Positions 8,781-34,476 of a DNA stretch of 41,055 nucleotides are shown here, in pieces. Source of the DNA: Methanofollis sp. (GTDB lineage: Archaea > Halobacteriota > Methanomicrobia > Methanomicrobiales > Methanofollaceae). The stretch's first letter is position 1. Each line of letters begins with the position of its first letter. The position numbers were made by a program, and so were the translations under genes. The notes under the pieces are model-generated. The model saw only the letters and a list, made by a program, of their open reading frames with translations. It was not told the DNA's origin and did no database searches. The DNA is taken from contig NZ_JAQVNX010000008.1 of assembly GCF_028702905.1 (NCBI RefSeq), forward strand, positions 1 through 41,055, read 5' to 3'.

Positions 8781-10034
8781 ATGGGAGCGACTCTCGTTGA
8801 AAAGATCTTCTCTTCCCGGTGCGGGAAGGAGATAGAGGCAGGCGATGTGGTGATGGCGGCCGTGGACCGCGCGATGATCCATGACATCACCGGCCCCCTT
8901 GCCATTCAGAAGTTCAGGGAGATGGGTGGGGAGCGGGTCTTCGACCCGGCGCGGATCGTGATGCTCTTCGACCACCAGGTCCCGGCCGACTCCATCCAGG
9001 CGGCCGAGAACCAGAAGTTCATGCGGGAGTTCGCGCTCGGGCAGGGCATCCACAACTACGACCTCAGGGAGGGCGTCTGCCACCAGGTGGTCCTGGAGAA
9101 GGGGCATGCGGCGCCCGGCGAGATCGTCGTCGGTTCGGACTCGCACACCTGCATGTACGGCGCTGCAGGCGCGTTTGCGACCGGCATCGGCTCGACGGAC
9201 ATGGGCTTTGTCCTCAAGTTCGGCGCCCTCTACTTCAGGGTGCCCGACTCGATCAGGGTCGAAGTGAACGGCGCCTTCGCACCCCGCGTCGGGGCAAAGG
9301 ACCTCATCCTCTCGATCGCCGGCGACATCGGCGCGGACGGCGCCACCTACCAGGCCCTGGAGTTCGCCGGCGAGACCTTCAGGTCGATGCCGATGGCCGG
9401 GCGGATGACCTGCGCCAATATGGCGATCGAGATGGGAGCGAAGGCCGGGATCGTCCCGCCCGACACCATCACCAGGGAATACGTGCAGGCACGCCGGCCC
9501 GACGCCGCCGGTTTCGACCTTGCGAGCGACAGGGACGCCGTCTATGCGGAGTGGCGGGAGTACGAGGTCGCCGACCTCGTGCCGCAGGTCGCGGTCCCCC
9601 ACAATGTGGACCATGTCGTCGGCGTCGACGAGGTCGCCGGCACCCACGTCGACCAGGTCTTCATCGGTTCCTGCACGAACGGCCGGTACGAGGACTTTGC
9701 CGAGGCCGCCGGGGTTCTCGGCGACAGGAAATTCTCCGACGCGGTGCGGGTGGTCCTGATCCCGGCCTCGAAGGAGGAGTACCTGAAGACCCTCAGGGCC
9801 GGACTGATCGAGCGTTTCGTCGAGGCGGGCGCACTCGTCGAGGCGCCGTGCTGCGGGCCGTGCATGGGCGGGGCCTTCGGCCTCCTCGCCCCGGGCGAGG
9901 TCTCCCTCTCCACCTCGAACAGGAACTTCAGGGGGCGTCAGGGGAGCACGGAGGCCGGGGTCTACCTCTGCTCCGCGGCGACGGCGGCGGCGAGTGCGAT
10001 CACCGGCGAGATCACCGACCCGAGGGAGGTGTGA
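8781..10034 (+). CDS. hacA: Homoaconitase / 3-isopropylmalate dehydratase large subunit
   Basis: Aconitase-family large subunit of 417 residues, normal for archaeal HacA/LeuC. It isomerises (homo)citrate-type acids by dehydration and rehydration using a [4Fe-4S] cluster. Cluster ligands are expected at C298 (FIGSCTNG), C358 and C361 (CCGPCMGG). The substrate-binding stretch [21 protein letters not shown] starts near residue 117. The N-terminus [11 protein letters not shown] is typical. The next gene, 3 bp downstream, is its small subunit, followed by the matching dehydrogenase. In methanogens this trio makes 2-oxosuberate for coenzyme B (and biotin) or serves leucine synthesis. The sequence does not decide between the two, so the symbol is provisional. 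Confidence 0.88.
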
Positions 10035-10535: not shown

Positions 10536-11626
10536 GCGGCGACGGCATCGGGCCCGAGATCCTCGACGAGGGGAAGAAGGTCCTCGATGCCGCGGGGGAG
10601 AAGTACGGCTTCGAGATCGGGTGGACAGATTTCGATATCGGGGCCGATAGGTACCTGGAGACCGGGGTGCTGATCACGGAGGAGGAACTGAAAGAACTCT
10701 CCGGGTACCCGGCGATCTACTTCGGCGCCATCGGCGACGAGCGCGTGAAGCCCGGCATCCTGGAGAAGGGCGTCCTCCTGAAGATGCGGTTCTTCTTCGA
10801 CGAGTACGTGAACCTCAGGCCGATCCGTCTTCTGCAGGGGGTCCAGACCCCTCTTGCCGGGAAGGGGCCTGCGGACATCGACTTCGTCGTGGTGCGGGAG
10901 AACACCGAGGACTTCTATGTCGGGATCGGTTCGCGCTTCAGGAAAAGCGAAATAAAGGAGCTCGAAGTTGTCCGCGACCTCTACTCGGTGAAGTTCGGCC
11001 TCGACGTCGAGAGCGACGCCGAGGAGATCGCCTACCAGATCGGCGTCCTCTCCCGCGAGGGGTGCCGGCGGGTGATGGAGTACGCCTTCGACCTGGCCGA
11101 GAGGCGGGGCAGGAAAGTCGCCTCCGTCGACAAGGCAAATGTCCTCTCCGACGTCTACGGCCTCTGGAGGGAGGTCTTCTCCGAGGTGGCGGGGCGCCAC
11201 CCAGGTGTGACGACCGAGTTCACCTTTGTCGACGCCATGACGATGTGGTTTGTCAAGAACCCGGAGTGGTTCGACGTCGTCGTCACCCCGAACATGTTCG
11301 GCGACATCATCACCGACCTCGGGGCGATGATCCAGGGCGGCCTCGGCCTTGCGCCAGGCGGGAACATCAACCCGAAAGGGACCTCGATGTTCGAGCCCAT
11401 CCATGGGTCGGCCCCGAAGTACAAGGGCCTCGGCGTCGCGAACCCCATCGCCACCATCTGGGCCGGCGGCCTCCTCCTCGACCACCTCGGCGAGCACGAG
11501 GCGGCAGAAGGGATCGTGCGGGCAATCGAGGGGACGATCCGGGACGGCGTCGTGACCCGCGACCTCGGCGGCGCGGCAGGAACCGCGGACGTCGGCGACC
11601 GCATCTCGGCGCGGATCAGGGAATAA
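10514..11626 (+). CDS. aksF: Homoisocitrate / 3-isopropylmalate dehydrogenase
   Basis: NAD-dependent beta-decarboxylating dehydrogenase of 370 residues. The N-terminus [15 protein letters not shown] is the family signature. [13 protein letters not shown] (about residues 128-140) and the metal/substrate-binding [30 protein letters not shown] (from about 259) are intact. A nucleotide-binding segment [19 protein letters not shown] follows. It starts with GTG at 10514, inside the end of hacB, with GAGGTGG 4-6 nt upstream, so translation is coupled. It completes the three-enzyme chain-elongation module with the preceding isomerase subunits. Coenzyme B pathway (AksF) or leucine (LeuB) function cannot be separated here; the symbol is provisional. 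Its 3' end overlaps the convergent sensor gene by 11 bp. Confidence 0.88.
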
Positions 11627-12806
11627 ACTTATTTTTATCCTCTGAAGCGGAGGGGGAGCCCGACCGCCCCCCCTCTGTGCCGTAATGCCTTCGCAGGAAG
11701 CCGCGGACGGTCTCACACTCCAGCCAGCGCTCGTCGAGATGGGTGACGATATCGTCGATCTCCATCGCATGCCTGAGGATTTTCTCAGAAAAAGCACCCT
11801 CTGCCATCCCGGCAAGGCCCACGATGGCAGTCAGCGGGTTTCTGATCCGGTCGTTGAGGACGGCGAGCTGGGCGAAGTTCCGGTCTATCTGGGCAAATGC
11901 CTCCTCCCGCATCTCTTCAAGGCGCCGGCGTTCGGTCACGTCGAGGAGGGAGAGCACATAGCAGTCGTTTCCCGGGATCTTGCCTGTATGCAGGACCGCG
12001 GAGATCTGCCTGCCGTCCACACTGGTGAGGGCGATCTCATAGCCGTTCATCGAAAAAAGGGGATCCAGATCGCGTTTTTCATGGATCACCAGGATCCTCT
12101 CCCTCTCCTCAGGGGAGACGAACAGGGTCCAGGGTATCCCGCAGAGCACGTTCTGATCGATCTTGAGCAGGTTCCCGAAACCAAGATTCGCCCGCACGAT
12201 CGAACCGTCGTCCCTGACAATCGCCATCGCGGTTCCGCTGTGCTCGAAGATCGTCCTGTATAGGCCCTCGGAATCGTGAAGACGGTTTTCAGCCAGCTTC
12301 CGACCTTCCATCTCCCTGACAAGCTGGAAACTGTGGGTGATGCACATCGAGAGCATCCCTGCAAAGGTGGAGGCGAGGGAGAGGACACGGGAAACGTTCT
12401 CCGGGGAGAGGAGAGGCACCGCCGCCGGGGATGCCGGCATCTCCCTCTCGTCAGGACAGGAGAGAGGCCCGCCGCAGAAAAATGCGACAGGCCTGCCTTC
12501 CAGGCAGACAGGAGCGACGATCATCCTGGAACTTCCCCGACACCTGACCATGACGGACTCCCCGCCTTTCAGGCCCAATACCCGACCACTGTCACAGCAG
12601 GAGAGGGCCGGCCCACCCGCACACAGGCGGCAGGACTCTGTGCAGAAACTCCAGCCCCTGGTCGTGGCCACCTGCACGCCGTCGCGGGTGAGGATACAGG
12701 CGGGGACGCCGGTGATGTCGTGGAGGTTCTCCATCAGCGCCTTCAGCTTGCCGACATCGGTGAAATCAGAGATTTTAATCCCTCTTTCAGGAGTATTGTG
12801 GCCCAT
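11616..12806 (-). CDS. PocR-PAS sensor protein without a kinase ATPase domain
   Basis: Protein of 396 residues, apparently soluble. Residues 1-165 form a PocR-type ligand-binding domain with a Cys-rich core ([21 protein letters not shown], then RCRG), as in other methanogen sensors. A PAS domain follows (about 180-295, ending [15 protein letters not shown]). A two-helix dimerisation segment then reads [14 protein letters not shown]; an Arg occupies the place where related archaeal kinases have the phospho-His (NDHIRNPL). There is no HATPase domain, and the C-terminus ends with the recurrent [21 protein letters not shown] motif. It is probably a non-catalytic sensor or partner protein. The ATG at 12806 is chosen for GGAGG 3 nt upstream. 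The 3' end overlaps the dehydrogenase gene. Confidence 0.85.
11624..11640 (+). terminator. T-rich termination region after the hac operon
   Basis: The stop codon of the dehydrogenase gene is followed by ACTTATTTTTATCC, a T-rich run of the kind that ends archaeal transcripts. It lies inside the 3' end of the convergent gene. Confidence 0.35.
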
Positions 12807-12831
12807 CGTCCTCCGTAAAGGTTCGTGTACC

Positions 12832-12846
12832 CATAAATAAAATATC
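12832..12846 (-). promoter_or_regulatory. Candidate TATA box for the PocR-PAS gene
   Basis: On the minus strand this reads ATATTTTATTTATGG, about 27 nt before the ATG at 12806, so the leader would be very short. A small palindrome TACTATTAGTA at 12849-12859 lies just upstream. Confidence 0.4.
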
Positions 12847-12921
12847 AATACTATTAGTAAGGTTTGTTTTATATCATTACATTAAACAAGACTCTTTTAT
12901 TTCTCGAACATTCAATCTGTG

Positions 12922-12945
12922 ACCAAAATAGAAAAATAGAAATTA
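12922..12945 (-). terminator. T-rich terminator of the seven-gene surface operon
   Basis: Downstream of the last operon gene the minus strand reads ATTTCTATTTTTCTATTTTGG, three close T-runs typical of archaeal termination. It lies between the stop at 12963 and the promoter of the next minus-strand gene. Confidence 0.5.
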
Positions 12946-12962: not shown

Positions 12963-13964
12963 TCAGGCAGGGAGGGGCGAGGGCCATCCCTCGCCACGAC
13001 CCTCTGAGAATCGAGTGATCATATAGTCCATGAACTCGCGGGCAAGGTCGGGGTGGGAGGCAGAGTTCGGGACCGTCGCCGCATAGACGATGGGGTTGCC
13101 TATCCGCTCGCTCCCAATGGAACCGAAACGCTGAAAACCGAGTTTGACGACGGCCTTCTCATAGTCGCCTGCATATGCTGCAGAGCCGAGGTCGATCTCG
13201 GGCGGCAGGGTGACGTACTTCAGGCCGTGTCCCTCCGCCACGCTCAGGTACTCGAAGGCATAGTCCACCCCCCCGGTTTCGACGAGGGAGAGGAGGAAGA
13301 TGCTGCCGTCGCGTATCCTGACCTTCCCTGTCTCCTGCTTGAGCACCTCGGGAAGGGTGATGGACGTGACGCCGCCCTTTTCTTCCACCGTCACATTCGG
13401 CCTGAGGTGATCGCCGAGGACGGCGTCGAAGAGGCCGTCGTCCCGGTAATATCTCTCTGCCAGGGTCGTCACCATCAGTGCCCTGTAGCCTGCGGCATCG
13501 AGCATCGGGTTCGAGATCCCGACGACGACGTCAGGCCTCGAAAGCACTTCATGCCAGTTCTCGGTGGTGATCTCGTCTGCATACCTGCTCTGGTCCGTGT
13601 ATGCGACGACCATCTGGTTGGTCGCAAAGGGGGTATACGTGTCTGTGTAGTTCCCTTCCCTATCCACCATCGTTCGGTACATCATGTCAGGGATGAGGGC
13701 CTGATCTGCGACCACCACCACATCGATGGGACGGTGGAGGTCAGTCACCTGCCTGATGCACTGGATGGAGCCGTGCCCCTCAATCTGGACGTCCACACCA
13801 GGGTGGGACGCCTCAAAACCGGCCTCTATCTCTTCCATAGGGAGAAGAAGACTCCCGGCCGGGACGACCTTCAGGGTTGTAGGGGTGTCGTCACCACCGG
13901 TGCACCCGGCCGCAAGGACAAACACCGCCGCAAGAGCGAGGAGAATGAGGGGGGTGCCCCTCAT
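12963..13964 (-). CDS. wtpA: Tungstate/molybdate-binding lipoprotein, WtpA-like
   Basis: Extracellular solute-binding protein of 333 residues. It has a lipoprotein signal (FVLAAGC, Cys at about residue 22) followed by the type-II periplasmic binding fold. Family landmarks are visible in order: VVPAGSLLLPMEEI, IEGHGSIQCIRQVTDL, FATNQMVVAYTDQSRYADEI, SNPMLDAAGYRALMV, and VDYAFEYLSVAEGHGLKYVTLP. These correspond to the Ser, Asp and Glu/Tyr positions that hold tungstate or molybdate in WtpA/ModA proteins. The ATG at 13964 overlaps the upstream stop by ATGA, so it is the last coupled gene of the surface operon. No permease or ATPase partner gene is present here, which is unusual and leaves open a non-transport role. 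Confidence 0.85.
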   Translation of the reverse strand: MRGTPLILLALAAVFVLAAGCTGGDDTPTTLKVVPAGSLLLPMEEIEAGFEASHPGVDVQIEGHGSIQCIRQVTDLHRPIDVVVVADQALIPDMMYRTMVDREGNYTDTYTPFATNQMVVAYTDQSRYADEITTENWHEVLSRPDVVVGISNPMLDAAGYRALMVTTLAERYYRDDGLFDAVLGDHLRPNVTVEEKGGVTSITLPEVLKQETGKVRIRDGSIFLLSLVETGGVDYAFEYLSVAEGHGLKYVTLPPEIDLGSAAYAGDYEKAVVKLGFQRFGSIGSERIGNPIVYAATVPNSASHPDLAREFMDYMITRFSEGRGEGWPSPLPA

Positions 13965-14545
13965 GAACGTTTCACCTCGATCCGGTCCACCCACTTCACC
14001 CAGGCGCTCCCCTCGGTGATAGTGTTTGGTTCACCGGTGCCGACCACGATCCGCAAGGGACCGCCGTCTCCATCAGGGATCGCTGTTCCATTGAACTCGT
14101 AGGCGAGGACCAAGGTAAGAGTAGGTGAGGATTTCTCTTTGAGGTTCTGGTCAAAGGTCACAAAACCCTTCCCGGCCATCTGCTCGTCATCGAAGACCCA
14201 GTAGTAGCCGTCAGGGGCTGTGATTCCGACCTGATCGCCTTCTCCAGACCCGCCAACGAGATCGACCAGTGTTGTAAGGGTTACGCCCTTGACATTGTAT
14301 GGCCCGTACTTGATCCCAACCGTGGAGACCGCATAGCCATAGCCTTCCCAGGCGGGGAGGTTTTTAATCTCAGAGAAGGAGAGTACCTTTTCATTGGTGC
14401 CGTCAGAAACTGTGAGGTTCCAGGATATATCCTCAACAGCCTGAACGGCGGGATCAGTAGTTCCAGTGGTCCCGATACACCCGCAGGCGGCTACAGCGCA
14501 GATGAGGGCAAAGACAGCCAGGAACCAAACGAAACGAGTCTTCAT
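13961..14545 (-). CDS. SUOX-like domain lipoprotein
   Basis: Secreted protein of 194 residues with a signal peptide ending in a Cys-containing lipobox-like sequence (AVAACGCIG). The mature part is one domain resembling the oxidoreductase molybdopterin-binding (sulfite oxidase) beta-sandwich: DISWNLTVSDG at the start, VKGVTLTTLVDLVGG, a DGYYWVF strand, and GGPLRIVVGTGE ... WVKWVDRIEV at the end, which recalls the PLRLVVP/KWV ending of that family. No Cys is found at the molybdenum-ligand position, so catalysis is unlikely for this copy. It has ATGA overlaps with both its upstream and downstream operon neighbours. Fold assignment is from motif pattern only; anchoring by lipid is inferred. Confidence 0.72.
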   Translation of the reverse strand: MKTRFVWFLAVFALICAVAACGCIGTTGTTDPAVQAVEDISWNLTVSDGTNEKVLSFSEIKNLPAWEGYGYAVSTVGIKYGPYNVKGVTLTTLVDLVGGSGEGDQVGITAPDGYYWVFDDEQMAGKGFVTFDQNLKEKSSPTLTLVLAYEFNGTAIPDGDGGPLRIVVGTGEPNTITEGSAWVKWVDRIEVKRS

Positions 14546-15393
14546 CCCCGCATCCTCCTTGCAAAGACGGCAGCACCAAGCCCTGCCAGGAGTCCGAAGA
14601 GCGGCCCCGGACTCTGGACGGTCTGTGTGGCCGTCGGGATCTCTGTTGTCTCGACCGCGGCAGATCCCTGGAGTGACTTGACCGGGACATTCTTCGCTCC
14701 ACTATACCCGCCCTCATAGACCCGTACCTCGTCGATCCACTTTACCGTATAGCCTGAAGTCGAGGGATAGAGGTCATCGAAGAGGTGGAGGCGCTCAGGT
14801 GGGAAGCACTCGCGCATATCCTGGTTGCCAAAGACATGCTTGCCCTCCGGGTTAGTGGAGTTGTCGGCAAAGAGGACCAGGCGCATCCCAACATGATAGT
14901 CCGGCGGATAGCCGACGCCCTGCCGCTCGCCGACAGCCGCGTCTTCGCCATTGTACCAGCAAACACCAATCGGCCCCTGGCGCGGCTCGGGTTCATAGAC
15001 ATTCTTGTATCCGAACTCGATGTGATATCCGTCACCTGCCTTGACCATCACCTCGTCGCCGGGTTGCATGCCGCCGACAAGGTCACAGAGGTCGGCAACG
15101 TTCGTCCCCTTCACCGCGCCGCGGTCCTTGAAGTTCGTGGTCTCGTTCCTGTCCCACTGGGCCTCCTTGTCCTCGGAGAAGACCGGGCCCTGGTGGTAGT
15201 AGTGGGTCGTGCCGTCGCCGAGGACAGGGAGGTTCGCCTCCATCCACCGGTAGTCGACGGTCGTCTCATTGAGCACCGTGGTGCCGTCGTCCGCAAACTT
15301 TACCACATGCACCGAGGTCGTCGGTGCGGCCTGCGCCCCTGCGATACATGCGCAGAGGAGCAGGAGCAGAAATACACTCTTTGTTACGTTCAT
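14542..15393 (-). CDS. Anchored single-domain surface protein (NLPVLGDG family)
   Basis: Secreted protein of 283 residues. Signal peptide 1-22 (ends AGAQA). One domain of about 210 residues has the family signatures WMEANLPVLGDG, YYHQGPVF, VADLCDLVGGMQPGD, AGDGYHIEF, RLVLFAD, FGNQDM and TSGYTVKWIDEVRVYEG. Similar domains start the 992/986-aa and 1756-aa proteins of this operon. The DLVGG...DGY core looks like a derived SUOX-type fold with an insertion. A Thr-rich linker then leads to the tail TQTVQSPGPLFGLLAGLGAAVFARRMRG: a short motif, a hydrophobic helix and basic residues, as in archaeosortase substrates. Its stop overlaps the next start by ATGA and it begins 4 bp after the phosphatase gene. 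Confidence 0.82.
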   Translation of the reverse strand: MNVTKSVFLLLLLCACIAGAQAAPTTSVHVVKFADDGTTVLNETTVDYRWMEANLPVLGDGTTHYYHQGPVFSEDKEAQWDRNETTNFKDRGAVKGTNVADLCDLVGGMQPGDEVMVKAGDGYHIEFGYKNVYEPEPRQGPIGVCWYNGEDAAVGERQGVGYPPDYHVGMRLVLFADNSTNPEGKHVFGNQDMRECFPPERLHLFDDLYPSTSGYTVKWIDEVRVYEGGYSGAKNVPVKSLQGSAAVETTEIPTATQTVQSPGPLFGLLAGLGAAVFARRMRG

Positions 15394-15397
15394 AAAA

Positions 15398-16651
15398 TCA
15401 CCTTTCTTTTTTCATCCACAGGGCGACCATACCGGCCGCTGCACATGCACAGAAGGGAGAGAGAGGCGCCTGTGCAGCGTTCTCCCTCTCTGTCTTCGGC
15501 GTCATTTCAATCGTCTCGAAAGTGCTATTCCGGGGGTAGAGGCTCACAACCTCCCTGTTATCCCCGGAGATCCTGGCAACAGGCACCGTGGAGACTGTCA
15601 CCCTCTCTCCGTCCACACTGACCCGCAGGTACGCGAGGGTGTGGTCGAGGCCGTTTTCAAAACCCTGGGCCTTTTTTTCGGCAAGAGGGAAGAGTTCCTC
15701 CCCGCCGCACGGGATCACGAAGTACGGCGTCCCGTTGACCGCATAGCGTTCATAGGCATGGACATGCCCGTTGAAGACCGCCGTTACGTTGTAGCGGTCG
15801 AAGAGAGGCGCCCATTCCCTCTGCAGGACGCGGTCGCCGCCCCAGTGACGTTCATTGGACGAGAAGACCGGGTGGTGGAAGGCGACGAAGGTCGGGCCCG
15901 AAGACCGGGCGAGGTCGGCCTCCAGCCAGGCGGTCTCCTCGTCGATCCGTCCCTTTGCCCAGTCGTTCGAGTCCAGGACGACGACATGCGCGTCGCCCCA
16001 TTCGTAGGAGTACCACTCCGGGACGCCGAAGGCGTCATAGTAAGGCGTCCTGTTCCCCTCGTGGTTGCCGAGGGCGGGTACCAGAGTGGTGTTCGCAAGC
16101 ATCCCCTTCGCCGCCGCGAAATACTCGTCCCATTCGGCGAGGTCGTTCCCGAAGGTGACGAAGTCGCCGCAGTGGATGACAAAGGAGAGGTTCTCCTCCT
16201 CCGCAATCCTGTCGGCAACAAGCCTGTGCCTCTCCATCTGGGAGAAGAGGGGGACCTGCCCCCTCGTGTCACTGTACACCGCAAAGGTGAACGGCCCGGA
16301 ACCGGCGGTCATGAACCGGCAGTCCTGACTCCTGGCATCCCCTGCGGTGACGGCATAGAGGTACGTCGTCCCGGCCGTGAGATCTGTCAGCCGCACATGG
16401 TGGAGGGTTACACCAGAGGGGTCTGCAATCGTGTGCGCATACTCTCCGGCCTTTGCGAACTCCTCGGCCGTCGCATAGGCGACCGTTCCGTCAGACGGTT
16501 CCGCGGTCTTCCAGGAAACAACGGCCGTCGTCCCGTCGGTGCCGGTGACGTACGGCCCCCAGAGAAATGGGGCATTTCCAGCGGCAACGGCTGACGGGAG
16601 GACCATGAGAAGAATAAAGAGAAGAGGAAGGAAAAGTCCGCCCCTCTTCAT
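15398..16651 (-). CDS. Surface-anchored metallophosphoesterase, purple acid phosphatase-like
   Basis: Secreted phosphatase of 417 residues. After a signal peptide (1-25) comes a fibronectin-III-like N-terminal domain (about 28-118) of the purple acid phosphatase type. The dinuclear metal site follows in order: YSDTRG (about 126), HCGDFV (159), GNHEGN (196), AFHHPVF (259) and GHVHAYER (299). All motifs are intact, so hydrolysis of phosphate esters outside the cell is expected; the substrate is unknown. The C-terminus AQAPLSPFCACAAAGMVALWMKKER has the short motif, helix and basic end of a sorted, anchored protein. The ATG at 16651 overlaps the upstream stop by ATGA, tying it to the PEGA surface protein. 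Confidence 0.9.
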   Translation of the reverse strand: MKRGGLFLPLLFILLMVLPSAVAAGNAPFLWGPYVTGTDGTTAVVSWKTAEPSDGTVAYATAEEFAKAGEYAHTIADPSGVTLHHVRLTDLTAGTTYLYAVTAGDARSQDCRFMTAGSGPFTFAVYSDTRGQVPLFSQMERHRLVADRIAEEENLSFVIHCGDFVTFGNDLAEWDEYFAAAKGMLANTTLVPALGNHEGNRTPYYDAFGVPEWYSYEWGDAHVVVLDSNDWAKGRIDEETAWLEADLARSSGPTFVAFHHPVFSSNERHWGGDRVLQREWAPLFDRYNVTAVFNGHVHAYERYAVNGTPYFVIPCGGEELFPLAEKKAQGFENGLDHTLAYLRVSVDGERVTVSTVPVARISGDNREVVSLYPRNSTFETIEMTPKTERENAAQAPLSPFCACAAAGMVALWMKKER

Positions 16652-19608
16652 CTCCTGAGCCTGACCTTGCACTCTGTCACCTCCCCGGGCCTGACCAGCA
16701 CGTCATCGACGGTCCTCGAGTCCGAGCGGCCGACGACCTTGACCGAGTAGACGCCGATGTCCATGCCGGTGAAGAGATGGGGCGTCACCTCCCCGGTGTT
16801 CTGGCCGTAGAGATAGATCTTCGCTCCGTCGGGCGTGCTGTTCACGTACAGGGAACCGCTGGCATAGGACGCAAGCATGAACTTCACATCCACCTTTTCG
16901 CTCCCCTTCGGGACGAGGACCACATCCTCCTTCGGGAGGTAGCCCGGTTTGGCGAGCATGACCCGATGGCGCCCCGGCGAGACATTCTCCACGGTGTAGG
17001 GAGTTGCACGCCCGGTGTCGAAACCGTCCACGAAAATTTCGGCACCCTGCGGGGTAGAGTCAACCCGGAGAGAGGTCAGGCCGTCGGTCACGGGCTGGAG
17101 TGTCAGGGTGCTCCCGTCCTCGGCAAAGTTGGAGATCGGGACAGAAATATAGGACCCGTTCCTGCTGAATGATACAAAGGAGTTCAGACCGCCGAACTTA
17201 ATCGTCGCCGGCACCTTCTTGCCGGTATAGTAGCCGTTGACAGAACAGGGTGCCCCCTTATACGCGGGGACATCAACGGTGAGGGTCTTCTGTATCGCAT
17301 TCTCGCTCCGGTCAAAACGTACAGGGACGACGACGCCCGGAGAGACACAGACCTCCTTCGTGTCGACGGCATAGGAGGCTTTCGCCTTCTTCACCTTCAC
17401 GCGGTGGAGGCCTTCCTTGAGGCCGTTAACCACCTGCGGGGTCTGTACATCGATCTTTTTGTTGTCGATGTAGATGTCTGCCCCATCGTCGCTCGCCTCC
17501 ACATAGATGCCGCCCGAACGGGAGTCCATCCCCTGGACGGCGGCAAGGGTGAGGCAGAGGGGGTCGACATGGAGGTTCGGGTTGCAGGGTTCGAGGGAGA
17601 CAGCGACATCGGTGTCCTCATCGAGGTCGAAGGCGGTCTCGTAGGGGCGGTAGTTCTCCAGTTCGATCCTGAGGATGTGGTCTCCTGTCGGCAGGTCAGA
17701 GAGACTGGCAGGGGTGATCAGACCGGTGTATACCCCGTCCTGGAAGACCTGCGCACCAGCGGGGTGTGTGATGACGGTGACCGTAGCGTGAGTCGCTGAA
17801 GGCGTCATCAGAGGAGCGGGAGTCTGGGTCGGGACGTCAGTTTTCTCTCCCGTCCCGGCCGGTGCCGGGATCTTTTCATCCCCTCCGATGCCGAACCACC
17901 CGGCGATCATCGCCCATATTCCGGAAAAGAGATCTCCGGAAGTTTCGGTCTCTGTCACTGGAACACTGGTTACTTCAACGGTTGTGGTCGTCTCTGTCGG
18001 CGGCACCGTCGCGGTCGTGACCGGGAGGGCCCGGACAGGCATCCGGGTCACGGCAAGGAGGACGATCCTGTTCTCAATGTAGTCGCCGGGATCGCCGGTC
18101 GGGATACTTGCGATCTCGACTTTATTCCCTGCATCCCTGAGATAGGGAGTCGCATCGGCCCTGCCGATGCTGACGGCGTCCTCCCCTCCGGATAGGAGGT
18201 TGGTCCACTCCCCGCCATTGAGGACGACGCGGTTTGTGAATGTGTCATTCCCTGCCGCACCTGTGCTGACGACACTGAGAGCAACGACTGTCCGGTCGTC
18301 CCGCTGCCCTATCGGATCGGTGAAATCGGCGGTGGTGCAGGCGTCGTCTTCTGAAACCCCCGATGCGGGGTCTGCCTGGATGACATCGGCACCCTCGGCA
18401 ATCCACCAGGAAGTGCGGTTGCCCGAGGTATCGGGAAGCGGTACGACGAGGACGCCACCAGAAAGGGTGAGCGAGCTCTTATCCTCTCCTGTATTCCTGA
18501 CATGGAGAGTATGATTCGCCGACGGAAGCGTCTTCAGGGCATAGCGCCAGGTCTCGACTGCCGGGTTGCGTCCCTTCGCGTCGTCGGTATAATATGCCTC
18601 GGCCCTGAGGCCCATGTTCCCCAGGGAGACTTCAAGGTCGGTACCGTCTTCAGACGGACTACCCGTGTTGTTTGTCCCGAAGAGATAGAGGCGCACACCG
18701 GAGGTCTTACCTATGCCGGTCGTGTTCAGGAAGATGGTGCAGGAATCACCGCTCTCCAGGGTGCAGAAACCTCCTTCAGAGGTGATGACCTGCACCGTGC
18801 CGTTCACCGTGCCTTTGTCGGTGACTGAGAGGGCCGAACCCGTGAATCCAGTGGGCTTGCTTGTGCCATCGCCGCCAGACCCTCCCGATCCCCCGGAAGA
18901 TGCAGGTTCATCGCTGTGGATGGTAATCTTGTTAACCACCTGAACAGAGTTGCCGCTCGCTGAGGGGTACTTGTTGTTGTAGTAATACCAGTATTCTTCA
19001 TCCCAGGACTCGTGCATGTCCCAGTTGCCCCAGACATGCATACCCTGCTCGTTTGTCGTCTCGCCGAAGAAGTAGAGGCGCATACCTTCCCGGAATTTTT
19101 CATCCACGTAACCGGTGTCCTTGCCATGGTACCAGGCGATCACCATCGGTCCCTGCCGGGGATTGGGGGTGTAAATGTACTTCGCCGGCCACTTTTTGGA
19201 TAAACCGTCATAGGCTTTGATCTCGACGAGGTCCTCCGGTTCGGCCCCGCCGACAAGGTTGCAGAGGTCCTTCACGTCGGTGCCCATGAACTCTCCGTGG
19301 TCCTTGTAGACCAGATTCACGTCCTCGGTCGGGTTCCAGCCGTCATATTGCTCGCCTGGATGAACCTCCTTCCACGCGTCCTCAAAGACAGGTCCCTGGT
19401 TGTAGTAGGTCGTCTCGCCATCACCGAGGACCGGGAGGTTATCCTTCATCCACTGCCAGGTGACCGTCTTCTGGTCAAGGACGGTCGTGTCGTCACTCGC
19501 CAGTTTGGTAATCGTCACTTCCGTCGTTGCGGCCGAGACCGGCACTGCGACCACCGCCACCATGAAGAGGAGAACGGCAAGGAGAAGGAGGGATTTTTTT
19601 TCCGTCAT
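16648..19608 (-). CDS. Large secreted multidomain protein with PEGA repeats
   Basis: Secreted protein of 986 residues. Signal peptide 1-26 is followed by an NLPVLGDG-family domain (about 27-235) nearly identical to the one in the 1756-aa protein. A Gly-Ser linker leads to a DUF3344-like beta-rich region (about 255-520: GTVNGTVQVITSEGG, SGVRLYLFGTNN, RIVLLAV). A Thr-rich stalk (530-600) precedes four PEGA-type repeats (about 605-986), e.g. STPQGAEIFVDGFDTG and STPDGAKIYLYGQNTG. PEGA modules are extracellular and often bind surface components. Unlike its neighbours it ends without a hydrophobic sorting tail. The ATG at 19608 is chosen for the signal peptide; a GTG at 19626 is possible. The stop overlaps the phosphatase start. 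Confidence 0.82.
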   Translation of the reverse strand: MTEKKSLLLLAVLLFMVAVVAVPVSAATTEVTITKLASDDTTVLDQKTVTWQWMKDNLPVLGDGETTYYNQGPVFEDAWKEVHPGEQYDGWNPTEDVNLVYKDHGEFMGTDVKDLCNLVGGAEPEDLVEIKAYDGLSKKWPAKYIYTPNPRQGPMVIAWYHGKDTGYVDEKFREGMRLYFFGETTNEQGMHVWGNWDMHESWDEEYWYYYNNKYPSASGNSVQVVNKITIHSDEPASSGGSGGSGGDGTSKPTGFTGSALSVTDKGTVNGTVQVITSEGGFCTLESGDSCTIFLNTTGIGKTSGVRLYLFGTNNTGSPSEDGTDLEVSLGNMGLRAEAYYTDDAKGRNPAVETWRYALKTLPSANHTLHVRNTGEDKSSLTLSGGVLVVPLPDTSGNRTSWWIAEGADVIQADPASGVSEDDACTTADFTDPIGQRDDRTVVALSVVSTGAAGNDTFTNRVVLNGGEWTNLLSGGEDAVSIGRADATPYLRDAGNKVEIASIPTGDPGDYIENRIVLLAVTRMPVRALPVTTATVPPTETTTTVEVTSVPVTETETSGDLFSGIWAMIAGWFGIGGDEKIPAPAGTGEKTDVPTQTPAPLMTPSATHATVTVITHPAGAQVFQDGVYTGLITPASLSDLPTGDHILRIELENYRPYETAFDLDEDTDVAVSLEPCNPNLHVDPLCLTLAAVQGMDSRSGGIYVEASDDGADIYIDNKKIDVQTPQVVNGLKEGLHRVKVKKAKASYAVDTKEVCVSPGVVVPVRFDRSENAIQKTLTVDVPAYKGAPCSVNGYYTGKKVPATIKFGGLNSFVSFSRNGSYISVPISNFAEDGSTLTLQPVTDGLTSLRVDSTPQGAEIFVDGFDTGRATPYTVENVSPGRHRVMLAKPGYLPKEDVVLVPKGSEKVDVKFMLASYASGSLYVNSTPDGAKIYLYGQNTGEVTPHLFTGMDIGVYSVKVVGRSDSRTVDDVLVRPGEVTECKVRLRR
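18902..19534 (-). repeat. Near-identical direct repeat, copy in the PEGA protein
   Basis: About 633 bp encoding the N-terminal NLPVLGDG-family domain. It aligns without gaps to 25011-25643 at a constant offset of 6109 bp, with only scattered differences concentrated at 19340-19410. This indicates a recent duplication or gene conversion. Confidence 0.85.
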
Positions 19609-19635
19609 ATATGTTGTTAGAGTCACGGCAGATCT

Positions 19636-20418
19636 TCATCTCCTGAGGGCGCATACGGCGGCGAGGGCCGCAAGGACCACGGCAATTCCGAGGGGTGCCT
19701 GCGTAGCGGGTACTTTCTCCTTGCCTGCTGCACTGTTATGCGTATAGATCTCAAGGTTGCTCACCTGCTTGACAGAGAGACCGCTCGTCGACGGCCATTT
19801 TCCGCTGTAGAGATGCCACTCGTCCTCGGGCAGGGTCTCCTTCATATCGTTGTCCCCGAAGACATGCCGGCCCCACGGATTCGTCGAGGCGTCGGCAAAG
19901 AAGATCAGGCGGATGCCGTCATAGTACTCAGGGACATAGCCCGAGCCCTGCGGGTCGCCGGTGACGGAGTCCTCGCCGACATACCAGGCAAGGCCTATCG
20001 TGCCCTTCCGCGGGTCGTCGCCATAGACGGTTGCGTAGGAGAAATTCTTGTAGAACCCGTCCTCTGCCTTCACCCGGAGGGTGTCGTCGGGTCCCATGCC
20101 GCCGACAAGGTCGCAGAGGGCCCTGACGGCGGTGCCCTTCACAGCACCATAGTCCCTGCTCTCCACGTTCTGGTACTCGGCAGGATCCCACAGGTCAGAC
20201 TCATTGAAGGTCGGTCCCTGGTGGTAGTAGTGGGTCTTACCATCGCCGAGGACGGGAAGGTTCGTCTCCATCCAGGTATAGTTCACCGTCGTCTCGGTGA
20301 GGACGGTCGTGCCGTCAGGGGCATACCTGACGATATGGACGTCGGTCGTCGCCACCGCCGGCAGGACAAGAAGGCAGACGGCGAGGATGATGATCGACAC
20401 AATGCTATGGTTTTTCAT
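19636..20418 (-). CDS. Anchored single-domain surface protein (NLPVLGDG family)
   Basis: Secreted protein of 260 residues. Signal peptide 1-24 (MKNHSIVSIIILAV..., ends PAVA). One NLPVLGDG-family domain follows, with WMETNLPVLGDG, HYYHQGPTF, VRALCDLVGGMGPDD, AEDGFYKNF, GIRLIFFAD, FGDNDM and SGLSVKQVSNLEIYT. The tail PATQAPLGIAVVLAALAAVCALRR is a minimal sorting signal: short TQAP motif, helix, Arg-Arg. It is closest in design to the 283-aa protein of the same operon. The ATG at 20418 is preferred because GGTGA lies 5-6 nt upstream. A much longer open frame upstream runs through the preceding gene and is not credible. It lies 31 bp after the giant protein and just before the PEGA protein. Confidence 0.82.
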   Translation of the reverse strand: MKNHSIVSIIILAVCLLVLPAVATTDVHIVRYAPDGTTVLTETTVNYTWMETNLPVLGDGKTHYYHQGPTFNESDLWDPAEYQNVESRDYGAVKGTAVRALCDLVGGMGPDDTLRVKAEDGFYKNFSYATVYGDDPRKGTIGLAWYVGEDSVTGDPQGSGYVPEYYDGIRLIFFADASTNPWGRHVFGDNDMKETLPEDEWHLYSGKWPSTSGLSVKQVSNLEIYTHNSAAGKEKVPATQAPLGIAVVLAALAAVCALRR

Positions 20419-20449
20419 GTTTTTCACCCAGAGTGTAAAAAGGAGAATA

Positions 20450-23400
20450 TCACCTTCTCCGGAGGAGGAGAAGGGCGCCGAGGGCGATGAAGGGCAGGGC
20501 CCAGAAGACCGGCGACTTCTGTGGGGTCGTTGGAGCAGTCGTTGTTGTTGTCTCGACCGCCGGAGTCGTGACCTCTCCCACCGGTGCCTGCGCATCGTCG
20601 GGGGTCACTGCCGCACCTTTCTCCGCGGTGATGGCAAAGAAGGAGAAGCCCGGGGACCGGGCCGAATAGTATGCCTTCCCGTCCTTTTCCTCGACGAAGG
20701 TCGTCTCCAGACGGATCCACTCTCCGTTCACGTACCGGAGGAGGGTCACGTCGCCGGCCGAAACGCCCTGGGCCTTCAGCCACGCGGCGTCAACGGCAAA
20801 CTCGATGGTAACTCCTTCGATCGCCGACGGGTCGGTCTTGTAAAGTGTGACCTCCTGGATCTCGTAGACCGCACCCTCTGGTGCCGGGGCGCCCTTCGGC
20901 AGGCTTGCCTTCTTCACCGTAAAGAGGAAGTGTTCGATCCGGTCATAGGCGCTGACCGTGATCGTTGAGAACGCGGTCTCGGTCACGGAGAAGGACTTCG
21001 ATTCACCTGCCGGGATGGAGCCGGAAATGGCCGATATCGCCGCTGTACCGCCAGAGGATGAGGAGCGGTATTGAGGTGAAACCGTCGGGGTTGGGGTTGG
21101 AGTGCCGCCGACCGCGAAGTACGAGAAGCCCGGCGTCGTCGCTGCGAAGTAGGCGGAACCGCCGCGGCTCTCCAGGTAGGTCGTCGGAAGCTGCTGCCAG
21201 ACGCCGTCGTGGTACCGCATGAGCCTCACGTCCTTTGCTGCGATACCCTGTGCAGAGAGCCAGGAGAGCGGGACGGAGAAGGTGACCTCGGCCTCGCCGA
21301 GGGAGTCCTGGGACTGGGGGTACAGGACATGGATGAGCTGGTAGACCTGATACTCGGGTTTCGGGACGTCTTGCGGGAGGGTGTTTACTGCAGAGACGGC
21401 AAACTGACCGCCGTTGATGTCACCCTTCGCCTTCAGGGTGAGGTTCGAGAAGGTGCAGTTCTCGACGGTAAAGTTCTTCTTCGTGCCTGCCGGGATGGTG
21501 CCGATCTGCTGGACAGCATCGCCCATACCCGGCGGGATGAACGCTATCCGCACAACACCCTTCGTCGATGTGCCTATGGCGGTTCCGACAAGTCTGAGCG
21601 GCCAGCTGCTGTCCTCGGGTTGGATGTGCCTGCCGTCAAGAGAGTTGGCGAGGATGTAGTTGGTGTCATCATAGCGGCTCAGGTTCCTGGAGTCGATGGT
21701 CGTCTCGGTACCGTCCGAGGCTACGATGTGGATGGTGTAGCCCTCGGCCGTCATTGCATCGTTGAAGGCCCGGCCGGTGTGCTCGTTGTCGTCGTCCACC
21801 CAGCCAATGACACGCCAGAGGGGCATGCCCTGCCAGACACGGCCTTTGTCGTCCTTATACTCAGCCCGATGGGTCGCTTCACATGCGACACCTTCCTCGA
21901 AGTAGTGCTTGCTCATCGAGGCGGAGATGGTGCCTTCAAGGGAGAGGGTCCAGTCCTTCTCAAGGGGGACTATCTTGATGGTGGCGACGTTCCGTGCCGA
22001 TAGGCCGCCTGCAGAGGGGTATTTTATGCCACTATCGAAGTAGAAGTGGTGGTACTGCGAGGCAAAGGAGACCCTCATGTCTTCGTTGCCGAAGACCTTG
22101 TCGGGGGTGATGAAGAACAGCCTGTAGCCGTCACCATAGTCCGGCACATAGCCGTCGCCCTTCATGTACCATGCAAGGACAGCGGTGCCCTGCCGGTCAA
22201 GGGGGGCATAGACGTTGGTGTAGTTCATCTTGGTCTGGTAACCGTCGACCGCCTCAAGGGTGATCTCGGTGCCGGTTTCCATGCCGCCGACGAGGTCACA
22301 GAGGTCCTTGAGGGACGTACCCTTCACGGCGCCGTAGACCTTGCCAGGATTGGCGTTCTTGTTCTCTTCTGGGTTCCAGAGGTCGTCCGGGTCGAAGGTC
22401 GGGCCTTGGAAGCGGTAGACTGTCTCGCCGTCGCCGTAGACCTTGAGGTTCTCCTGCATCCAGGTGTAGTTAAGGGTCTTCTCGGCGACGATGGTCGTGC
22501 CGTCCGCGCCGTACTTGATGATGTGGAGGTCAGGGATCTTGGTCGGTTTCTGGAACTCGGTCAGTTCGATCCTGGCGATGCTGCCGACGCTGTTGCTGCC
22601 TGAGACAGCAGGACCGACAAGCCGCAGGGGCCAGGGTGCCTTGCTCCCGTCCTTCGGGAGAGCGGTGCCGTTGAGTGTGTTTGCAATGATATACCCATTG
22701 TTCCGGGCGATGTCCTTGCTGGAGAACTCCTTGGAGTAGCCGTCCCCGGCTGTGACGATCACCGTATAGCCGGCCGTCGCCGCACCGTCGTTGAAGCCGT
22801 TCGATCCATGGGGGATGCGGTCATCGACCCAGCCGCAGAGGTCCCAGAGCGGGAGGCCGGACCAGCGTTCACCGGTCTCCGGATTGGTCCAGGTAGCCGT
22901 GTGATGCGAACAGGCGACTGCCTGCTCGAAGAATTCCTCGGTGGCGATGTAATCGATCTTCCCCTTCAGTTCGAGGTTCCAGGAGCCCTCAGGCGCCGGG
23001 CCGGGGATGAGGTCGACAAGGTCGATTTCCACGACATTCTTCAGGCCTTTACCAGCAGAATCACCAACGAGCCTGAGCGGATATGATGAATCTGTATCGG
23101 CAATCGGCGTACTGTTCAGTCTGTCGGCAAGGATGTAGTCGCTGCTCCTGTTGATCTGCTTGCTGCCGAGAGAGATTGTTGTCCCGTCACCGGAGACGAT
23201 CTTCACTGTGTAGTTAGTTGCGGCAAGTTTGTCATCGTAGGTCCAGTGATTGGTGGTCTCGATGTTGTCGGAGACGCCGACGAGGAACCAGAGGGGCACA
23301 CCGCTCCAGACACGGCCCTTGCCGTCAGTATACTCGACACCACCGTGACAGCCTGCTTCTTCAAATTCTGCCTGGGTGATGGTGTCGTTGATGGCACCGC

Positions 23401-25720
23401 AGACCTTCAGGGTCCAGCCCTGATCAGGTTCTGGGAGGCCGACGAGTTCGATGGAGGCGATGGCGCCGACAAGTTGTCCGGCGTCGGCTTCGGAGCCCTT
23501 GATCTGGAGAGGCCAGCAGGGCTTTTTCTTCTCACCGATCGTTGCGGGGAGTGTCTCACCATTGAGGGTGTTTGCAACGATGAAACCGCTGCTGCGGGCC
23601 ATCTCGGAACTCGGGATGTTGATCGAGTAACCGTCCTTCGAGGTGACCTTCACCGAGTAGCCTTTGGCTGCAAGGGCGTCGTTGAAGGTGTAGTGGCCGC
23701 CGGTCTCCTCATCGTCGACCATGGCGACGAGCATCCAGAGGGGCATGCCGGCCCAGACGTCACCGGTTTTTGAGTCAGTCCAGGTAGCCGTGTGATCTTT
23801 TGTTTTACAGGCAAGGGTCTCCTCGAAGTAAGCCTTCGTGACCGTCTGCGTCGTCTTCCCCTTCAGGGAGAGGGTCCAGTCGCCGGGTGCGGGGGGGGCG
23901 CCGCCGACAACGATGTTGACGACAGTTGTAGCATTCTCAGGAGTGACCGGTTTCTTCTTTTCGTTGGGACCATAGTAGTAGGTCACCACATCGCCGTCTT
24001 TGAGAGGATAGATGTGGAGACCCTGCTCCTCGTACTTCTCCCAGTCATCCAGTGCTATGTCATTCACATAGCATGACCACCGCAATCCACTGCCATATCC
24101 GTAGGCATCAATACTATCTAGACTCAGTTTCCCGCTCTTTTCAATGACCGAATAGAGGAAACCCTGAGCCTTCGAAACTGCATCGAGAGCACCGAAAGGC
24201 GTGAAATTGCCTACCTCGCGGGGTGTTCCACCGGCGGGAGTGAGAGTAAACGTCCCTTCTGACAGTTTCATCCCGCCATTGAAGAGGACTGTCTTGCCGA
24301 CAAATGAAGGGACAACGGTGACGCTGGCCGTACCCTCTACACTGCCGCTCTTTGCGGTGACAGTCGTCGTGCCCGCGGCGTGTGCAGTGAAGTATCCGGT
24401 CTCGTTCACGCTTCCAACAGATGGGTTGCTGCTCGACCACTCAAAGGTGACATCGGTCATCGCCTGGCCTTTCTGGTCGAGTTCGGCGGCGGTGAACTGC
24501 CTGGCCTGCTCGGTCTCCAGGGTTTCACTGGCTGGAGTTACTGTTATTGTCGTCAGGACTGGGGTATCAGGCCGGGCAAGTTCGATCTTCGAGATCTGCT
24601 CGACTGCCCGCTGCGTGGTGTCCACACCAGTCCCCTGCAGGTAGAGGGGGAAGAAGACGCGGTCGATGTACGTGCTCTGGTTGATCTCAATGCCATTGAA
24701 CCTGTTCCCGAGGACATAGGTCTTTTTGCCGTCTGTCACTTCGGTGGAGTAGAAGGTTGAGGTGTAATCGACTCCTTTCTTCTTGCCGTAGACCGTAATC
24801 GTGTAATTCTCCGCAGCGAGAGTTGCATTCACGGTCTTGGGATCGTTGTCGTCGACCAGGCCGATGACAGCGGAGAGATTGGTGCCCTCAAGGAGGCCGT
24901 ACTTGTCGTGATGGAAAGAGGCCGGGTGTGCTGCGGCGAGAGCGAGGAACTCGCCCCTGGTGAGGGTGCGGTCTGTCGAGCCGTTGAGGGAGATCGACCA
25001 ATCTGCGGGGGCAGGTTCATCGCTGAGGATGGTGATCTTGTTAACCACCTGAACAGAGTTGCCGCTCGCTGAGGGGTACTTGTTGTTGTAGTAATACCAG
25101 TATTTTTCATCCCAGGACTCGTGCATGTCCCAGTTGCCCCAGACATGCATACCCTGCTCGTTTGTCGTCTCGCCGAAGAAGTAGAGGCGCATACCTTTCC
25201 GGAATTTTTCATCCACGTAACCAGTGTCCTTGCCATGGTACCAGGCGATCACCATCGGTCCCTGCCGGGGATTGGGGGTGTAAATGTACTTCGCCGGCCA
25301 CTTTTTGGATAAACCGTCATAGGCTTTGATCTCGACGAGGTCCTCCGGTTTGGCACCGCCGACAAGGTTGCAGAGGTCCTTCACGTCGGTGCCCATGAAC
25401 TCTCCGTGGTCCTTGTAGACCAGATTCACGTCCTCGGTCGGGTTCCAGCCATCATAGGGTTCACCGGGATGAACCTCCTTCCATGCATCTTCGAAGACAG
25501 GACCCTGGGTATAGTAGATCGTCTCGCCATCACCGAGGACCGGGAGGTTATCCTTCATCCACTGCCAGGTGACCGTCTTCTGGTCAAGGACGGTCGTGTC
25601 GTCACTCGCCAGTTTGGTAACCGTCACTTCTGTCGTTGCCGCAGCCGCGGGTGCGATGAGCATCCCGGCGACAAAAAAGATCAGAAGCGTCATTATTGCG
25701 AATCTGGTATCTGTTCTCAC
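20450..25720 (-). CDS. Giant surface protein with tandem SUOX-like domains
   Basis: Secreted, anchored protein of 1756 residues, first gene of the operon. Order: signal peptide 1-28; NLPVLGDG domain (29-235); SUOX-like copy 1 (240-382); BIG_2 Ig-like domain (387-470); DUF4430-like domain (473-597, with LRWSCYVNDI and LKDGDVVTYYYGP); SUOX-like copies 2-4 (610-762, 765-908, 910-1057); second NLPVLGDG domain (1060-1250); SUOX-like copy 5 (1253-1397); two PGF-pre-PGF-like modules (1400-1538, 1557-1700); tail TPQKSPVFWALPFIALGALLLLRRR. Copies 2-5 share a Cys, then W.G.PLW (e.g. RVWSGVPLWFLV), the pattern around the molybdenum Cys in sulfite oxidases; copy 1 lacks both. The GTG start at 25720 has GAGGTG 5 nt upstream. 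Whether any cofactor is bound is unknown. Confidence 0.85.
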   Translation of the reverse strand: MRTDTRFAIMTLLIFFVAGMLIAPAAAATTEVTVTKLASDDTTVLDQKTVTWQWMKDNLPVLGDGETIYYTQGPVFEDAWKEVHPGEPYDGWNPTEDVNLVYKDHGEFMGTDVKDLCNLVGGAKPEDLVEIKAYDGLSKKWPAKYIYTPNPRQGPMVIAWYHGKDTGYVDEKFRKGMRLYFFGETTNEQGMHVWGNWDMHESWDEKYWYYYNNKYPSASGNSVQVVNKITILSDEPAPADWSISLNGSTDRTLTRGEFLALAAAHPASFHHDKYGLLEGTNLSAVIGLVDDNDPKTVNATLAAENYTITVYGKKKGVDYTSTFYSTEVTDGKKTYVLGNRFNGIEINQSTYIDRVFFPLYLQGTGVDTTQRAVEQISKIELARPDTPVLTTITVTPASETLETEQARQFTAAELDQKGQAMTDVTFEWSSSNPSVGSVNETGYFTAHAAGTTTVTAKSGSVEGTASVTVVPSFVGKTVLFNGGMKLSEGTFTLTPAGGTPREVGNFTPFGALDAVSKAQGFLYSVIEKSGKLSLDSIDAYGYGSGLRWSCYVNDIALDDWEKYEEQGLHIYPLKDGDVVTYYYGPNEKKKPVTPENATTVVNIVVGGAPPAPGDWTLSLKGKTTQTVTKAYFEETLACKTKDHTATWTDSKTGDVWAGMPLWMLVAMVDDEETGGHYTFNDALAAKGYSVKVTSKDGYSINIPSSEMARSSGFIVANTLNGETLPATIGEKKKPCWPLQIKGSEADAGQLVGAIASIELVGLPEPDQGWTLKVCGAINDTITQAEFEEAGCHGGVEYTDGKGRVWSGVPLWFLVGVSDNIETTNHWTYDDKLAATNYTVKIVSGDGTTISLGSKQINRSSDYILADRLNSTPIADTDSSYPLRLVGDSAGKGLKNVVEIDLVDLIPGPAPEGSWNLELKGKIDYIATEEFFEQAVACSHHTATWTNPETGERWSGLPLWDLCGWVDDRIPHGSNGFNDGAATAGYTVIVTAGDGYSKEFSSKDIARNNGYIIANTLNGTALPKDGSKAPWPLRLVGPAVSGSNSVGSIARIELTEFQKPTKIPDLHIIKYGADGTTIVAEKTLNYTWMQENLKVYGDGETVYRFQGPTFDPDDLWNPEENKNANPGKVYGAVKGTSLKDLCDLVGGMETGTEITLEAVDGYQTKMNYTNVYAPLDRQGTAVLAWYMKGDGYVPDYGDGYRLFFITPDKVFGNEDMRVSFASQYHHFYFDSGIKYPSAGGLSARNVATIKIVPLEKDWTLSLEGTISASMSKHYFEEGVACEATHRAEYKDDKGRVWQGMPLWRVIGWVDDDNEHTGRAFNDAMTAEGYTIHIVASDGTETTIDSRNLSRYDDTNYILANSLDGRHIQPEDSSWPLRLVGTAIGTSTKGVVRIAFIPPGMGDAVQQIGTIPAGTKKNFTVENCTFSNLTLKAKGDINGGQFAVSAVNTLPQDVPKPEYQVYQLIHVLYPQSQDSLGEAEVTFSVPLSWLSAQGIAAKDVRLMRYHDGVWQQLPTTYLESRGGSAYFAATTPGFSYFAVGGTPTPTPTVSPQYRSSSSGGTAAISAISGSIPAGESKSFSVTETAFSTITVSAYDRIEHFLFTVKKASLPKGAPAPEGAVYEIQEVTLYKTDPSAIEGVTIEFAVDAAWLKAQGVSAGDVTLLRYVNGEWIRLETTFVEEKDGKAYYSARSPGFSFFAITAEKGAAVTPDDAQAPVGEVTTPAVETTTTTAPTTPQKSPVFWALPFIALGALLLLRRR
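25011..25643 (-). repeat. Near-identical direct repeat, copy in the giant SUOX-like protein
   Basis: Partner of 18902-19534, same strand, no gaps. It encodes the first NLPVLGDG-family domain. The flanking signal peptides and following domains are unrelated, so only the domain was copied. Confidence 0.85.
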
Positions 25721-25753: not shown

Positions 25754-25816
25754 ATTCACGATGTAGACATGTATCAGTCCTTTTTTGATATGAAAAACAT
25801 TACCCTGCCACAATTA

Positions 25817-25836
25817 GTTAATTTAACTAAATTAAC
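25817..25836. promoter_or_regulatory. AT-rich palindrome upstream of the seven-gene operon
   Basis: GTTAATTTA and TAAATTAAC separated by 2 nt form a perfect inverted repeat; a nested palindrome, TTAGTTAA-T-TTAACTAA, occupies 25814-25830. It lies about 100 bp before the GTG start. A possible minus-strand TATA element (TTTTTATCTTT) is at 25878-25888, so the palindrome would fall shortly after the start of transcription, the position of an archaeal repressor site. Confidence 0.45.
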
Positions 25837-34408: not shown

Positions 34409-34476
34409 ACGTGTGACTCCTCCCATTCCAGACTAAAAGAACGGACAATATGCGCGTTTAAGGTAATGAATTCCAT

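Follow-up and report, generated by a model that had tools for sequence, protein, structure and literature searches.

A conserved cell-surface operon of Methanofollis and related archaea, proposed to capture tungstate or molybdate for import

Layout of the operon and its products

Which task could be shared by seven coupled cell-surface genes that encode SUOX-like domains? The question is raised by a locus in the window, i.e., the whole stretch of DNA analysed here (41,055 nucleotides; G000:C8:1-41055), which belongs to a 2.41 Mb draft genome of a Methanofollis species. An earlier note on this DNA had described seven same-strand genes with three ATGA overlaps and otherwise short gaps, all with secretion signals. 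All seven open reading frames are present at the positions claimed (12963-25720, minus strand), and the ORFs and the sequence bear out both the ATGA start/stop overlaps (16648-16651, 14542-14545 and 13961-13964) and the remaining intergenic gaps of ≤31 bp. In the order of transcription the locus contains:

25814..25830, no strand: candidate operator, the 17-bp perfect palindrome TTAGTTAATTTAACTAA, ≈95 bp upstream of the first gene
20450..25720, minus: 1756-aa anchored surface protein (signal, SUOX-like domains, C-terminal anchor)
19636..20418, minus: 260-aa single-domain anchored SUOX-like protein, a paralogue of core protein S1
16648..19608, minus: 992-aa protein with four PEGA domains, DUF3344 and an N-terminal SUOX-like (S1) domain; secreted, without C-terminal anchor
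15398..16651, minus: anchored purple-acid-phosphatase-like metallophosphoesterase (metal motifs; ATGA overlap)
14542..15393, minus: core 1, the 283-aa anchored SUOX-fold protein S1 (conserved order, predicted fold)
13961..14545, minus: core 2, the 194-aa SUOX-fold lipoprotein (PF00174; Mo-ligating Cys replaced by an invariant Thr75)
12963..13964, minus: core 3, WtpA2, a tungstate/molybdate-binding lipoprotein paralogue in a clade separate from canonical WtpA
12925..12942, minus: T-rich tract, likely terminator, read directly

The ATGA overlaps set the starts of the phosphatase (16651), the SUOX lipoprotein (14545) and WtpA2 (13964). For the 260-aa gene an upstream in-frame ATG at 20595 was rejected and the ATG at 20418 used; the 992-aa protein starts at either GTG 19626 or ATG 19608. 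Signal peptides, C-terminal hydrophobic anchors with a basic tail and lipobox Cys residues were judged by eye, and the signals, anchors and lipoboxes claimed before could be seen in this way, as could the lack of a C-terminal anchor in the 992-aa PEGA protein. Inspection of the N-termini of the operon proteins revealed no twin arginine. The T-rich tract also lies where a terminator had been proposed, ≈20–40 nt past the WtpA2 stop. An Rfam scan of window positions 10000-36000 gave no match, and thus no Moco/Tuco riboswitch; comparison with a viral fold library gave no match either.

The palindrome TTAGTTAATTTAACTAA upstream of the first gene is the sole exact match in the genome, the next best having three mismatches. 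Its core, GTTAAWTTAAC, was found six times in 2.0 Mb of loci; five of these sites lie directly in front of the operon, in five Methanofollis genomes, and we regard the 17-bp palindrome as a candidate operator of the operon. An operator shared with canonical wtpA was rejected because the palindrome is absent upstream of that gene. A related palindrome, TTAGTTAATATAATTTA, is present in two copies at a second SUOX-like surface cluster without WtpA2 (G004:C1:1002965-1020634).

The 1756-aa protein has two S1-type SUOX-like domains (aa 8-234 and 1063-1250) and two PF00174 domains (≈aa 600-770 and 915-1062) plus weaker repeats, and also carries Big_2, a PGF-pre-PGF region and a C-terminal anchor. A DUF4430/transcobalamin-like domain guessed in this protein was dropped, since Pfam gives no support. 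The single-domain anchored proteins, i.e., the 260-aa protein and S1, are 52% identical over 235 aa and have no Pfam match. At the DNA level, the 992-aa and 1756-aa proteins have N-terminal SUOX-like domains (window 18910-19575 and 25025-25684) that are 96.2% identical across 632 bp. By contrast, those relatives that give a long match share 39–71% of residues between the two domains, which points to a recent gene conversion in the strain of the window.

The metallophosphoesterase combines a purple acid phosphatase (PAP) N-domain with a Metallophos domain. The metal motifs YSD, CGD, GNHE, HH, and GHVHAYER are present and the charge-transfer Tyr is absent; in the alignment, six of the seven metal ligands of bean PAP are kept, the Tyr ligand being the missing one. 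Upstream of the operon the window encodes a 2036-aa surface protein (28316-34426) with a PQQ-type beta-propeller, a NosD beta-helix and four Big_2 domains, and further on a gene cluster of MoxR AAA ATPase, DUF58, and VWA/BatA (36320-39294).

Conservation of the last three genes

Using S1, WtpA2, the phosphatase and the SUOX lipoprotein as queries, we searched 150 Methanomicrobiales genomes. The SUOX lipoprotein is present in 54 of them, and in 52 of these 54, spanning 18 genera and 6 families, S1, the lipoprotein and WtpA2 lie contiguously on one strand. In one of the two exceptions WtpA2 is on another contig, and the other is a fragmented genome. An order of three genes kept to this extent is beyond chance, and the gene order is thus not a peculiarity of this strain. 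The matched ends of the lipoprotein and WtpA2 overlap in most of the triad genomes. An apparent fusion of the two (a 496-aa ORF in L108) was rejected, as the coordinates show different frames.

Around this triad the arrangement is looser. The phosphatase and large SUOX-like proteins usually adjoin it in relatives, and neither the length nor the number nor the position of the 1756-aa and 992-aa proteins is constant. Other genera and families keep at least four of the genes together, so that the conserved, translationally coupled surface system proposed earlier holds; of the seven-gene unit, it is the last three genes that are invariant and not the whole set. Within the window's own genus the seven-gene order is kept in most of the ten operon-bearing genomes. 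The observation of seven genes is confirmed as real and not strain-specific. Two further genomes of the genus lack the operon, and one of these (G011) retains only an S1 remnant (85% identity over 60 aa at ≈9849-10028 of locus L087), near which pieces of the flanking p443 gene persist; here the operon has apparently been lost.

A search of 394 genomes of the phylum with the lipoprotein profile gave strong matches in two further families, and a scan of named genomes located the system in Methanosarcinales (GoM-Arc1, Argoarchaeum, ANME-2c, Methanosarcinaceae) and Methanophagales. Among the bacterial records at least two (L192 and L182) are probably archaeal contigs that were misbinned, their WtpA2 being 0.07 and 0.17 substitutions from archaeal sequences. 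A divergent operon with WtpBC in a MAG labelled Bacillota (L214) may reflect either transfer or misbinning. Since ≈90 of the 150 Methanomicrobiales genomes lack the operon, it is not essential for tungsten use.

SUOX-fold proteins, WtpA2 and the tungstate importer genes

The SUOX lipoprotein matches PF00174 (8e-11), and in the whole genome only two PF00174 matches exceed the threshold, both in this operon. Its profile also matches plant sulfite oxidase (6e-8). The AlphaFold model of the lipoprotein (pLDDT 90.5) has confident matches only to SUOX folds, i.e., sulfite oxidases, the YedY-type W-containing oxidoreductase 1xdy, and PruR, with TM values on the target of 0.66–0.76 (PruR 7kom: E 3.4e-6, TM 0.76). 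The S1 model (pLDDT 82) matches nothing but a sulfite dehydrogenase (4e-4) and PruR, and these weakly; a profile of this anchored protein found no match among PDB sequences, and only the fold comparison gave matches. The description of the operon as built on SUOX-like domains is thus right at the level of fold, as judged from predicted structures.

The lipoprotein shares the fold and the GGPLR and KW motifs with the sulfite oxidase family (PF00174; SorA, YedY, SUOX), but differs in lacking the dimerisation domain, the Tat signal and the Mo-ligating Cys. In the motif alignment the position of this Cys is Thr75 in all 53 lipoproteins, so catalysis is unlikely; Asp112 and Tyr114 (of a DGY motif) and Trp182 (Trp182/185) are invariant. 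PruR proteins are likewise secreted, lack the Mo-ligating Cys and bind reduced pterins, with Asn/Asp102, Tyr104 and Trp160 reported at the site and a Trp in place of the Cys (PMC13259868). The likeness to PruR (7KOM, 7KOS, 7RKB) lies in the stand-alone secreted SUOX fold, PruR being a top fold match to both core proteins, and for the lipoprotein also in the missing Cys. The proteins differ in that those described here are lipoproteins or membrane-anchored, and partly tandem, and in the Thr that the motif alignment places at the Cys position, for which PruR is reported to have Trp. The SUOX-fold proteins are unlikely to be catalytic and likely to bind a ligand, which could be an oxyanion or a metal-pterin complex.

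WtpA2 belongs to the WtpA equivalog family TIGR03730 (341 bits against a cut-off of 242.75; 3e-102) but stays below the cut-off of the stricter NF003196 (306 against 355), and in the tree it is separated from canonical WtpA with support 1.0 and a branch length of 0.52. Site residues were numbered by AF_0094 and compared with AF_0094 and MA_0280. Ser42, Ser70, and Asp153 are kept in all 51 WtpA2 orthologues. At position 218 a Ser replaces Glu, and residue 235 is Glu/Asp; Asp153 and Glu218 have roles that we take to be those seen in the AF_0094 structure. Canonical WtpA of the same order shows Ser218/Glu235 as well, so we rejected the notion that the loss of Glu218 is a WtpA2-specific loss of tungstate binding. 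The alignment suggests that the anion site persists with its carboxylate shifted, residue 235 presumably replacing Glu218. Five residues bordering the site (His68, Ile71, Gln72, Arg82, and Leu152) are invariant and specific to the WtpA2 clade, and the ligand may therefore differ from plain tungstate.

Compared with the known WtpABC system (TIGR03730, NF040839, NF040840; structures of MA_0280 and AF_0094), WtpA2 shares family membership and the anion-site residues, and wtpBC adjoins it in many relatives. It differs in forming its own clade, in its coupling to a pair of SUOX-fold surface proteins, in the extra invariant residues, and in having no wtpBC of its own in the window genome, where a single wtpABC with its own WtpA is found on another contig (C1). 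Neighbours were named by their best NCBIfam models, WtpB and WtpC, with scores below the strict equivalog cut-offs, so the names hold at the family level. WtpBC or Tup importer genes adjoin the operon in at least five arrangements and four families:

wtpB(C) directly behind WtpA2: G136, G045, G015, G072, G100, G018
convergent wtpBC behind WtpA2: G056, G077, G081
divergent canonical wtp(A)BC at the operon head: G016, G061, G085
wtpABC with tupA behind the operon: G079, G119
divergent tupABC, with a second WtpB/C behind: G041
wtpB-like permease and ATPase inside the operon: G148

In total, importer genes lie at the operon in 16 of the 51 loci of the order with usable flanks (by family: f3 1/1, f4 2/14, f5 6/9, f6 7/7, f1 0/10, f2 0/10). 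None adjoins the operon in the ten operon-bearing genomes of the window's genus or in the ten of f2, which speaks against a role in import. At an assumed chance of ≈1% per locus the probability of this is ≈5e-20, a figure that ignores relatedness, although the linked genomes are phylogenetically non-independent; the diversity of the arrangements is therefore the better argument. Outside Methanomicrobiales wtpB follows or adjoins the triad in six of nine loci, and in L140 and L190 S1, the SUOX lipoprotein, WtpA2, WtpB and WtpC are consecutive. Those WtpB proteins that accompany WtpA2 in Methanomicrobiales operons group in a separate clade, WtpB2 (support 0.955). TupABC, which has a binding protein of another family, adjoins the operon in some genomes (as tupA or tupABC) but is outside the conserved triad. 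In Methanolinea, a 649-aa protein in which TupA-like and WtpA-like tungstate-binding domains are joined heads the operon (L069:13047-14996 and L070:2892-4841).

The position of wtpBC varies between lineages. Several Methanoregulaceae and Methanosarcinales encode it within the operon itself, Methanocorpusculum/Methanocalculus have it as a neighbour, and Methanofollis and Methanoculleus carry it at another place in the genome. In several genomes WtpA2 was the sole match to the WtpA family. Four Methanoculleus genomes (G014, G019, G029, and G099) have wtpBC without wtpA beside it, leaving WtpA2 as the only candidate receptor there. The gene before these orphan wtpBC codes for an AP-endonuclease-like protein or is a tup gene, and the upstream gene in G014/G019 was rejected as a substitute receptor for being AP-endonuclease-like. 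In L234 and L235, the two of the corresponding loci (L234, L235, L236, and L237) that were examined for it, an MFS_MOT1 molybdate permease follows wtpBC. The WtpA-like protein, listed before as just another lipoprotein, is thus instead the key to the operon, which repeatedly occurs with a tungstate ABC importer or holds the sole candidate receptor. Judged by gene neighbourhood, the linkage of the module to transport is well supported. A tungsten requirement is listed for Methanocorpusculum parvum and Methanogenium tatii (PMC3439257). M. parvum strain XII (L195) has the triad with a convergent wtpBC. We take Methanogenium tatii to be the species now called Methanofollis tationis, allowing for spelling.

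Proposed role and alternative readings

We propose, with a probability of roughly two in three, that the operon encodes an envelope-anchored module that captures tungstate (or molybdate) for import. The large 1756-aa and 992-aa proteins and the small anchored proteins would display SUOX-fold domains on the outside of the cell, and these domains, probably non-catalytic and PruR-like, would concentrate the metal as an oxyanion or in pterin-bound form. For the anchored metallophosphoesterase, one possible task is to take off a phosphate or nucleotide, and another is to clear away phosphate esters that compete. At the membrane, the SUOX-fold lipoprotein and WtpA2 would take over, with WtpA2 passing the anion to the WtpBC ABC importer. 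We infer ligand binding by the SUOX fold, delivery to WtpBC, the part of the phosphatase and assembly into a single complex. Tungstate is a known ligand or inhibitor of PAPs, and the phosphatase might therefore be an oxyanion target rather than a processing enzyme. We see the module as a probable variant of WtpABC import rather than as a redox enzyme, and it is probably more than S-layer decoration. An analogy is offered by the Isd NEAT heme surface relays of Gram-positives, where anchored surface domains and a lipoprotein pass a metal ligand to an ABC importer; these differ in handling iron/heme and not W/Mo in archaea, and the likeness is one of idea rather than of any demonstrated sequence or fold relation. 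Searches of an open literature library found no description of such a surface module.

One specific form of the capture reading is salvage of metal cofactors, in which the SUOX-fold domains would bind molybdo/tungstopterin or other complexes of pterin and metal outside the cell, the phosphoesterase would remove phosphate or nucleotide, and the freed W/Mo oxyanion would reach WtpA2. Sulfite oxidases bind molybdopterin through the SUOX fold, PruR comes closest among the small folds, the DGY and invariant Trp of the lipoprotein resemble the Asn/Asp-x-Tyr and Trp contacts of PruR, and a phosphoesterase is often in the operon. Against this, free Moco is unstable, and the equivalence to PruR residues was judged from motifs. 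The PruR site is, moreover, probably too small for Moco according to a review (PMC13259868). We hold this form to be tentative and somewhat unlikely. An apparatus whose SUOX-fold arrays capture pterin-bound (or thio-anion) W/Mo, with processing by the phosphoesterase and relay to an ABC importer, seems rather unlikely too, and to our knowledge there is no example of a metallopterin salvage pathway of this kind.

A structural or adhesive surface complex, with the SUOX-like domains as scaffold repeats (S-layer-associated or for attachment) and WtpA2 recruited as a structural or sensory lipoprotein, would fit the tandem domains, PEGA, Big_2, PGF-pre-PGF and anchors, all typical of archaeal surface proteins, as well as the other SUOX-like surface genes without adjoining WtpA2 in the same genomes. 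It is hard to reconcile with the kept anion site of WtpA2, the several different wtpBC arrangements and the role of WtpA2 as sole WtpA for the orphan wtpBC in Methanoculleus, and we consider it improbable. The PruR-like fold of the core proteins might also suggest pterin or metal sensing analogous to PruR-DcpA, via the downstream PocR/PAS kinase (11616-12848), and several Methanofollis genomes have such a sensor gene behind the operon. Outside the genus this gene is not kept beside the operon, though, and the conserved partner of the core proteins, unlike that of PruR, is the tungstate receptor WtpA2, with no DcpA-type GGDEF/EAL protein among the annotated window genes, which makes sensing very improbable. 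Least probable of all is an extracellular sulfite oxidase-like Mo/W redox complex supplied with metal by WtpA2, as the assignment of both the lipoprotein and the large protein to PF00174 is countered by the Thr in all lipoproteins, the lack of redox partner genes and the lack of the twin-arginine signals with which cofactor-loaded SUOX enzymes are normally Tat-exported.

Both formate dehydrogenase and the enzyme that opens hydrogenotrophic methanogenesis, formylmethanofuran dehydrogenase, depend on W or Mo. The capture module proposed here would add metal acquisition to the uses of PruR-type non-catalytic SUOX folds, and it suggests a function for many surface proteins whose present annotation is no more than a domain name ("molybdopterin-dependent oxidoreductase", "PEGA"). 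A surface module tied to WtpBC would be a concrete and testable answer to how S-layer methanogens and alkane-oxidising archaea gather scarce W and Mo on the outer side of the membrane.
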